A DNA stretch of 64,000 bases from Collinsella sp. (GTDB lineage: Bacteria > Actinomycetota > Coriobacteriia > Coriobacteriales > Coriobacteriaceae): assembly GCA_029264355.1 (NCBI GenBank), contig JARIBW010000010.1, forward strand, positions 1 through 64,000, written 5' to 3'. Of the stretch, positions 10,412 to 13,167 are shown in pieces. A program made the translations under genes and the position numbers. Position 1 is the stretch's first letter. Every line of letters begins with the position of its first letter. The notes under the pieces are model-generated. The model saw only the letters and a program-made list of their open reading frames with translations, did not search any database and had not been told where the DNA came from.

Positions 10412-10497
10412 GTGGGCTTCGTGCTCGAGTACGCGACCTACAAGCCCGCCGTAAGGTAACCTGAACCCCCAGGGGCGCGCGGGTGTGTGCTCGCGCG
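10412..10497. repeat. 86-bp exact copy of the end of the EIIBC gene and its terminator stem
   Basis: These 86 bases are identical to 13082-13167, which encode the last 15 residues of the beta-glucoside EIIBC (VGFVLEYATYKPAVR), the stop codon and most of the terminator hairpin. Here they stand alone downstream of the YitT gene without the rest of a PTS gene, and the T run of the terminator is missing. This is a direct repeat 2670 bases from its twin, flanking the antiterminator and EIIBC genes. Confidence 0.95.
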
Positions 10498-10550
10498 ACC
10501 GTTCACCGTCGGAATATCGCCGTTCGCGGTCTGCGGGAAGCTCGCGGGGA

Positions 10551-10579
10551 CATCTCGCCTCAGTTGCCCCTAAGATAAT
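10551..10579 (+). promoter_or_regulatory. probable promoter of the beta-glucoside operon
   Basis: A GATAAT -10 hexamer at 10574-10579 would start transcription just before the RAT-like element. The -35 region is weak. Confidence 0.4.
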
Positions 10580-10589
10580 GGACAGTTGC

Positions 10590-10618
10590 AAGGTTGTTAC
10601 TCCTCGGGAGGCATCACT
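10590..10618 (+). promoter_or_regulatory. RAT-like antiterminator target in the operon leader
   Basis: AGGTTGTTACT, a small CC-TCG-GG stem-loop, then AGGCATCAC closely follows the layout of ribonucleic antiterminator sites (GG-TTGTTACT, loop, AGGCAAAACC) bound by BglG/LicT proteins. It lies in the leader of a BglG-type gene, where such sites belong. I could not find a clear overlapping terminator with a T run. Confidence 0.6.
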
Positions 10619-10686
10619 TGCGCATTGGTTTCGGGAGGTCCTTTTGGCCGCCGTTCGTGCGCGGAGATGGTTCGGGGAGTTTTTTC

Positions 10687-11520
10687 ATGCTTATCCTCAA
10701 AAAGATCAACAACAACGTCGCCCTCGCGTCCACCGACGCGGGCGAAGAGGTGGTTGTCTTTGGCAAGGGCGTGGGCTTTCACGAGACACCCTATCGGCTT
10801 GAGGACGAGTCCATTATCCAGCGTGTGTTCCTCGATGTGGACGAGCGCTTCGTCGACGGTTTCGAGGGAATCGGCGACGACGTCCTCCTCGCGGCCTCGG
10901 ATATCGTGGCCCTGGCGGACGAGGAGCTCGACTGCAAGCTCGCGGGCAACCTGGTCGTGAGCCTCGCGGACCACCTCCAGTATGCCGTCGAGCGCGCGGG
11001 TGAGGGGGTCTTCATCGAGAACCCCCTGTCCCATGAGGTCGCATTCGTCTATCCGCGCGAGACCGAGATCGGACGCCGCGGCCTCGAGGCGGTGCGCGAG
11101 CGCCTGGGGGTGGAACTGCCCGCCAGCGAGGTGACCTCCATCGCCCTGCACCTGGTCAACGCAGAGGTCGACGGCATGGGTAGCGTCCAGGACATGGATC
11201 TTGTCATGAAGAGCACCGTCATCTTGGAGCGCGCCATGCAGATCATCGAGGGCCAGCTCGGACAGGAGCTCGACCGCACATCCTATGCGTATGTGCGCTT
11301 CGTGGCGCACCTGCGCTTCCTCATCAGGCGCCTCATGCGCGGCGGTTGCAAGGAGACCGAGAATTCCGGTCTCTTCCGCCAGGCCGCACGTGACTTCCCC
11401 GACGCCTACCGGTGCGCGGCGGGAATCAACGAGTACCTCAAACGCGATTACAACTGGAGCTGCTCCGATGAGGAGATGCTCTATCTCATGATGCACGTCA
11501 ACCGTCTGCGGCAGGGCTAG
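10687..11520 (+). CDS. BglG/LicT-family transcription antiterminator
   Basis: This 277-residue protein has an N-terminal RNA-binding CAT domain (MLILKKINNNVALAS, then GKGVGF) and two PTS regulation domains. The phosphorylatable histidines are His96 and His155 in PRD1, and His208 and His270 in PRD2. In this family EII-dependent phosphorylation of one PRD silences the protein, while HPr phosphorylates the other to activate it. Unphosphorylated or correctly phosphorylated dimer binds RAT RNA and prevents termination. GGGGAG lies seven bases before the ATG. A RAT-like element lies 70-100 bases upstream and the cognate EIIBC gene follows, so autoregulation of the operon is likely. Confidence 0.92.
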   Translation: MLILKKINNNVALASTDAGEEVVVFGKGVGFHETPYRLEDESIIQRVFLDVDERFVDGFEGIGDDVLLAASDIVALADEELDCKLAGNLVVSLADHLQYAVERAGEGVFIENPLSHEVAFVYPRETEIGRRGLEAVRERLGVELPASEVTSIALHLVNAEVDGMGSVQDMDLVMKSTVILERAMQIIEGQLGQELDRTSYAYVRFVAHLRFLIRRLMRGGCKETENSGLFRQAARDFPDAYRCAAGINEYLKRDYNWSCSDEEMLYLMMHVNRLRQG

Positions 11521-11573
11521 GTCGCCCACGCCGCGATGGGGCCGCGCCTCGTTGGGGCCGCGGCGCCCCGCGT

Positions 11574-11595
11574 GCGGCGGGCATGCGCCCGCCGC
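11574..11595 (+). repeat. GC-rich hairpin between antiterminator and EIIBC genes
   Basis: GCGGCGGGC, loop ATGC, GCCCGCCGC. No T run follows, so it is a stem-loop of unknown role, perhaps an mRNA stabiliser or processing site. Confidence 0.6.
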
Positions 11596-11692
11596 CATCC
11601 ATTCACCGTCCCGTCGCATGCGCCAAGGGCCCGGCGCGGCGACGAGCATACGAACAGAGTCATCGGTCTTCTCGAAGGGAAAGGATTGGGAT

Positions 11693-13129
11693 ATGGCGGG
11701 AACATACGACGACCTCGCACGCGCGATTCTGGAGAACGTGGGCGGCGGGGACAACGTCATCAGCGTGGCGCACTGCATCACGCGCGTGCGCTTCAAGCTC
11801 AAGGATGAGGACAGGGCGGACACCGAGGCGATCGAGGCCCTCGACGGCGTGATCAAGGTCATGCGGGCCAACGGCCAATATCAGGTCGTCGTGGGCAACA
11901 AGGTCGAGGACGTCTACGATGCCGTCGTGGCGGTCGGCGGCCTTGCCGCCGCCGGCGAGGTCGATGTGGCGGACGACGCCCCCAAGGGCATCGCGGCGAA
12001 GGCCATCGACCTGATCTCGGGAATCTTCGCGCCCATGCTCGGCACCTTCGCCGCCGCCGGCATCATGAAGGGCATCCTCGCCGCGATCACGCAGTTCTGG
12101 CCCGCCTTCGCCAACGACGGTGCGTACACCGTCCTTTATACGGTCGCCGATGGGATGTTCTACTTCCTGCCGGTCGTCCTCGCGTACACCGCTTCCAAGA
12201 AATTCAAGATGAACGAGTTCACGGGCATGGCCATCGGCCTGGCGCTCGTGTATCCCACCATGGTCGCGCTCACCGGCGGTGAGGTCGTGGGCAGCGTCGA
12301 CCTCGGTTTCGCCGGAACGTTCTCCTGGTACGCAACGTTTTTGGGTCTCCCCATCATCATGCCCGTCTCCGGGTACACGAGCTCGGTCATCCCGGTCGTC
12401 CTCATGGTCTGGTTCGGCTCCGTCGTCGAGCATTGGTGCAAGAAGTGGATGCCGGCCTCCGTCAAGATGTTCTTCACCCCTCTGGTCGTGATGGTTCTTT
12501 CCGTCACCTTCGGGTATCTGGTGATCGGTCCCGTCGCCACGATGATCACCAACCTGCTGACCATGGTCTTCTCCGTGTTGTTCGGCCTGCCGGTCGTCGG
12601 TTCCGTGCTCGGCTGCACCATCGTCGCGGCCTTCTGGATGTGCCTCGTCATCTTCGGCTTCCATTGGAGCCTCATGCCCATCGCGCTCGTGAACCTCGCG
12701 ACTCTCGGTCACGACTACATCCTCGGGTCCATGATCGCCCATTCCTTCTCGCTGGGCGCCGTGCTCTTCGCCATGTACCTCAAGAACAAGGATGAGAATT
12801 TCCGCGGCATCTGCCTGCCCGCCATCATCTCCTCCTTCTTCTTCGGCGTGACCGAGCCCGCCATCTACGGTGTCGCCCTGCCCGACAAGAAGGCCTTCGT
12901 CAACGCGTGCATCGGGTCCGCCGTGGGCGGTCTCATCATCGGCCTCACCGGCGCCGTGGTGTACATGTCCGGTGGCCTCGGCGTCTTCAACTGGCTGTCC
13001 TTCCTGCCCGTCGATGCCGCGAGCGGCGTGGGCGTCATGCACATGGTCTGGGCCATCGTCGCCTCACTGGCCGGTGCCCTTGTGGGCTTCGTGCTCGAGT
13101 ACGCGACCTACAAGCCCGCCGTAAGGTAA
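11693..13129 (+). CDS. beta-glucoside PTS transporter subunit EIIBC
   Basis: This 478-residue sugar permease of the glucose-glucoside PTS family takes up and phosphorylates a beta-glucoside. The EIIB domain (1-85) has its phosphocysteine Cys28 in VAHCITRVRF. The EIIC membrane domain (about 105-478) includes FFGVTEPAIYG, the conserved substrate-site motif. There is no fused EIIA; that domain is a separate gene three positions downstream. The ATG follows AAAGGATTGGG. The gene sits between its antiterminator and a 6-phospho-beta-glucosidase, which supports a beta-glucoside substrate. Its last 86 bases, including terminator stem, are duplicated upstream of the operon. Confidence 0.93.
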   Translation: MAGTYDDLARAILENVGGGDNVISVAHCITRVRFKLKDEDRADTEAIEALDGVIKVMRANGQYQVVVGNKVEDVYDAVVAVGGLAAAGEVDVADDAPKGIAAKAIDLISGIFAPMLGTFAAAGIMKGILAAITQFWPAFANDGAYTVLYTVADGMFYFLPVVLAYTASKKFKMNEFTGMAIGLALVYPTMVALTGGEVVGSVDLGFAGTFSWYATFLGLPIIMPVSGYTSSVIPVVLMVWFGSVVEHWCKKWMPASVKMFFTPLVVMVLSVTFGYLVIGPVATMITNLLTMVFSVLFGLPVVGSVLGCTIVAAFWMCLVIFGFHWSLMPIALVNLATLGHDYILGSMIAHSFSLGAVLFAMYLKNKDENFRGICLPAIISSFFFGVTEPAIYGVALPDKKAFVNACIGSAVGGLIIGLTGAVVYMSGGLGVFNWLSFLPVDAASGVGVMHMVWAIVASLAGALVGFVLEYATYKPAVR

Positions 13130-13167
13130 CCTGAACCCCCAGGGGCGCGCGGGTGTGTGCTCGCGCG
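13082..13167. repeat. parent copy of the 86-bp direct repeat
   Basis: Identical to 10412-10497; this copy is in its native place at the 3' end of the EIIBC gene. Confidence 0.95.

Follow-up and report, generated by a model that had tools for sequence, protein, structure and literature searches.

The end of a PTS EIIBC gene appears twice in a Collinsella sp. draft genome, once where it belongs and once ahead of the licT-type antiterminator gene that precedes EIIBC, which raises the question of how the extra copy came to lie there and whether it does anything. We addressed this question in a 64,000-nucleotide stretch of one contig (referred to here as the window) by comparing the two copies, their flanks, and the surrounding genes with controls and with related loci.

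An exact copy of the EIIBC gene end upstream of licT

Positions 10412 to 10497 are identical to positions 13082 to 13167, forming an exact direct repeat of 86 bp with a start-to-start distance of 2670 bp around licT and EIIBC, just as the sequence-only reading had described it. That reading was also right that the EIIBC tail, its stop codon, and most of its terminator stem are duplicated; each copy holds the last 15 sense codons and the stop of the gene (13082 to 13129 in the parental copy), followed by 38 bp of 3' untranslated region (UTR). The downstream, parental copy on the forward strand is the true gene end, in frame with the EIIBC open reading frame (11693 to 13129). The upstream copy, on the same strand, starts 30 bases past the last base of the stop codon of a YitT-family gene, with 29 bases between them (10383 to 10411), and its right end directly adjoins the licT regulatory region.

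Such identity is not due to chance. The repeat occurs at exactly two places in the genome, a draft of 1,555,646 bases (1.56 Mb) in 53 contigs with a completeness of 97.61%, and the window has no other exact direct repeat that reaches 30 bp within 10 kb. In a survey for exact repeats that covered 596,119 bases from 42 sources, namely the window and 41 further loci (some sharing a genome, with Collinsella stercoris as L049), the runner-up within 10 kb measured 57 bp. We rejected an interspersed repeat family, given the two places in the own genome, only two partial matches, of 35 and 37 bp and located at EIIBC gene ends, among 42 further genomes of the genus, and, for a 31-base piece taken from the repeat, no exact match in viral_contigs. 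The plasmid collection had no match to positions 9400 to 14700, and the Rfam search of 9400 to 16100 returned a single weak, subthreshold match.

Homology stops abruptly on both sides of the repeat when anchored alignments are judged against controls. For the upstream flank, alignments as good as the real one came from 256 of 500 shuffles and from 96 of 500 pieces drawn at random from the window; for the downstream flank, they came from 41 of 300 random pieces. A longer, decayed EIIBC pseudogene upstream was rejected, since alignment of the 29 bases preceding the upstream copy with the interior of EIIBC was no better than that of controls. A gapped blastn match between 10404 to 10448 and the end of the C. 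stercoris EIIBC gene (84%) begins 8 bases 5' of the repeat, and a small deletion at this edge may account for it; we took the match as chance because the anchored alignment to C. stercoris at the upstream edge scores only 1.5. The 29-base spacer after the YitT stop contains no T-run, which is consistent with loss of sequence after YitT.

Both copies end within the 3' arm of the EIIBC terminator hairpin, so that the last bases of the arm and the T-run are not included. The parental hairpin (13125 to 13176) has a predicted free energy of -28.4 kcal/mol (z score, -3.04) and is directly followed by TTTTTT. The corresponding sequence at the upstream copy (10455 to 10510) still folds (-25.4 kcal/mol; z score, -1.52), and the terminator scan found no terminator-like site there. 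We do not favor a role as a working YitT terminator, given the missing T-run. With no gene, no T-run, and no counterpart in the 13 related loci tested, the upstream remnant most likely does nothing.

An ordinary bgl operon and its leader

The repeat lies in a row of forward-strand genes in the order YitT, 86-bp copy, licT, EIIBC, bglA, EIIA, HPr, and then gatCAB, with Pfam support from YitT through HPr; the gatCAB names are putative and supported by synteny only. The left neighbor encodes a YitT-family membrane protein (9624 to 10382; PF02588, E value of 1.7e-33), for which 9624 is the chosen start and an earlier TTG is listed for the same open reading frame. It is followed by the licT-type antiterminator gene (10687 to 11520; CAT_RBD plus PRD, PF03123 and PF00874), the EIIBC gene (11693 to 13129; PF02378 and PF00367), which is of the beta-glucoside type judging from gene context, and a bglA-like gene of glycosyl hydrolase family 1 (GH1) (13195 to 14649; PF00232), whose substrate is likewise suggested by context. 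The EIIA gene (14728 to 15258; PF00358) and an HPr-like gene with a GTG start (15267 to 15515; PF00381) complete the set before gatCAB. A protein with CAT RNA-binding and PRD domains, encoded beside a PTS EIIBC gene and a GH1 gene, marks a bgl operon of the LicT/BglG type. In the order of its RAT-like leader, licT, EIIBC, GH1, and EIIA genes, and in their Pfam domains, the operon resembles other licT/bglG-controlled bgl PTS operons and is ordinary; its single unusual feature is the extra EIIBC tail in front of the operator-like dyads. Another contig of this genome carries a second, diverged licT-EIIBC-bglA-EIIA set (L096).

The upstream copy abuts two operator-like dyads on the forward strand (10498 to 10530; RCCGTTYRCGGT type) that are spaced 21 bp apart, and the dyad pair begins with base 10498, directly 3' of the copy. 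With up to 2 mismatches allowed and a motif written after such leaders had been viewed, the 21-bp-spaced pair recurred in 6 of the 17 licT leaders scanned, window included, and at least one dyad lay 150 to 200 bp before licT in 13 of the 17. Over the entire window, a comparable dyad pattern occurred about as often as expected by chance (9 occurrences versus a mean of 6.79; 26 of 100 shuffles reached at least 9). The dyads are possibly sites of a sugar regulator in Collinsella, an assignment that we consider putative.

Farther downstream, the licT leader (10588 to 10686, forward strand) carries what we take to be a RAT antiterminator sequence, the predicted target of LicT in the leader RNA, together with a GGGGAG-T6 terminator arm beside the start codon, and shares 79.8% DNA identity over 99 bp with its C. 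stercoris counterpart. It folds at -38.3 kcal/mol, with 10 of 200 shuffles matching or exceeding this stability, and had no Rfam match up to an E value of 1. The terminator arm (GGGGAG, then T6; within 10588 to 10690) stands directly 5' of the licT ATG, and therefore the arm and the ribosome-binding site seem to overlap. A similar arrangement of GGAG, T-run, and ATG recurs in the licT leaders of relatives. The upstream copy had been placed between the YitT gene and the bgl promoter; its position between YitT and the licT region holds, and the promoter is the part that found no support, as a consensus scan of 10300 to 13250 detected no sigma-70-type site on the plus strand before licT.

Related loci and the age of the event

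The closest named record by EIIBC is C. stercoris (taken here to be G037), with 89% amino acid identity in a search that may leave out very near records. Identity to C. stercoris at the DNA level is 82.5% for licT, 87.0% for EIIBC, and 89.7% for bglA; at the protein level, it is 92% for bglA, 75% for moaA, 82% for gatA, and 71% for YitT (81% over residues 18 to 248 in another search). Because the bgl operon genes show higher identity than the YitT, moaA, and gatA proteins, transfer of the bgl operon was considered as a source of the repeat; positional descent can explain the similarity, since C. stercoris also has these genes upstream of gatCAB. There, the bgl array runs across the start of the chromosome record and YitT lies elsewhere. 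The licT gene of C. stercoris (L080, 4984 to 5818) is frameshifted in the assembly after about 83 to 88 codons, and the matches to the EIIBC and bglA genes that follow are unbroken.

Comparison of YitT-gatC loci (L076, L078, L079, and L090) revealed variation. In G015, YitT and gatC are adjacent, with 136 bases between match ends and no bgl set between them; in G022, a bglA-licT-EIIBC-EIIA-HPr set occupies this position; and in G038, two bglA matches and an HPr match do so. The EIIA-HPr-gatC order is also present in C. stercoris and G022. These differences among G015, G022, G038, C. stercoris, and the present genome indicate that the interval ahead of gatC is, in these genomes, a site where the content of bgl PTS genes varies.

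An EIIBC tail of the locus's own upstream of licT was found in the window only, that is, in 1 of the 14 licT-EIIBC loci tested and in none of the 13 relatives (4000 bp searched per locus; 1298 bp for L058). The loci outside this test were covered by the exact-repeat survey; these were L054, L056, and L057, with no recognized licT, the more distant L060 to L071, L073, and L074, and second units on L059, L080, and L096. The sequence-only reading had proposed looking for zero, one, or two units in related strains, and to the extent that the stretches examined allow, the comparison yielded no two near-identical licT-EIIBC units in any relative, the second units in L059 and L080 being diverged.

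The sequence-only reading had inferred a recent event or ongoing conversion from the exact identity, and recency is supported. With no differences in 86 bp, including the 38 bp of 3' UTR, the rule of three would put the divergence between the copies below about 3.5%, pointing to a duplication that is recent or to copies that were recently homogenized. The 65-bp EIIBC-bglA spacer, which includes the copied 3' UTR, had no blastn match in C. stercoris (a short query of weak power), despite 87% identity in EIIBC DNA. The event looks young because none of the 13 related loci has the tail and because the spacer is unmatched in C. stercoris; going by these comparisons, it looks younger than the split from that species.

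Origin of the extra copy

Our leading reading, which we hold tentatively and to which we give close to an even chance, is a recent duplication scar, left by tandem duplication of the licT-EIIBC unit and loss of most of the first copy. In this scenario, illegitimate recombination would have produced a head-to-tail duplication of the unit, which starts at the distal operator-like dyad, takes in licT and EIIBC, and ends with the terminator hairpin. A later deletion would have removed most of the first unit, beginning just past YitT and stopping 48 bp short of the end of its EIIBC gene, so that an 86-bp remnant now precedes a single intact unit. How these events took place, and in which order, is what we infer. 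A same-orientation, exact copy of a unit's end just upstream of that unit is what a tandem-duplication remnant looks like, and the copied terminator arm abuts the distal dyad much as it would at a unit-to-unit tandem joint. Passages of PMC11111574 describe tandem-duplication remnants that arise by illegitimate recombination in bacteria, and the present case shares with that description a recent, same-strand repeat of a transcription-unit end and the lack of detectable homology past the joints; it differs from that description in that only 86 bp of the second copy is left and in that no intermediate was seen. A limited literature search found no paper joining Collinsella licT or EIIBC with partial duplication or direct repeats.

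Duplication followed by loss had been called the most economical reading. It does fit the sequence, above all the terminator-dyad joint, but it is not clearly the most economical, because it requires two illegitimate events where a single templated insertion suffices to explain the same sequence. It also has no two-unit intermediate in the stretches examined, and tandem duplications usually collapse by homologous recombination without a scar, which counts against it. A one-step templated insertion is almost as likely, and we regard it as a real, if doubtful, possibility: a growing strand would have left the YitT-licT spacer, copied 86 bp from the end of EIIBC at a distance of 2.7 kb, and returned to the spacer once the hairpin stalled it. 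One event would replace two, both edges are sharp, and the copied piece ends within the very stable parental hairpin; such an insertion alone, however, does not predict that the copied piece would end precisely where the dyad pair begins, and we know of no well-documented class of short templated insertions from such a distance in bacteria. An assembly artefact, in which at least one junction of the upstream copy is absent from the organism, is improbable. The 53-contig draft, the exact identity, and the repeat length, which would match the overlap that assembly at k = 87 leaves (a setting found in some assembler k-lists), all speak for it; to our knowledge, however, neither 86 nor 87 is a usual final k, one contig of 80,988 bp runs through both copies, and a single false join would hardly yield a repeat whose two outer flanks are unrelated.

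The two genes recognized between the copies, licT and EIIBC, include no recombinase or transposase, which argues against a mobile element with terminal direct repeats. This gene content also bears on whether the pair is maintained as a switch through which recombination would delete or amplify the licT-EIIBC unit. That an exact direct repeat flanks just one transcription unit would suit such a role, but with no recombinase among the recognized genes and the repeat in none of the 13 related loci tested, we consider it very improbable. The same low likelihood attaches to an active switch in which recombination would produce reversible variation in beta-glucoside uptake, with a tandem copy number collapsed in the draft assembly. 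In principle, recombination between the remnant and the parental copy could delete or amplify the 2670-bp unit, as any such repeat might, and if the copy number does vary, this would offer the bacterium a simple way to tune beta-glucoside uptake. The finding is an ordinary genome scar; read as duplication and loss, it would be a clear case of such a scar, still young, at a variable sugar-PTS locus, where it would serve chiefly to mark copy-number change.

Elsewhere in the window, positions 48794 to 48933 hold an array of GC-rich units with 20-bp spacing, in which five 40-nucleotide copies in overlapping register are 70 to 95% identical to the reference copy, and 45-bp units form a tandem pair (89% identical) at 47098 to 47187.
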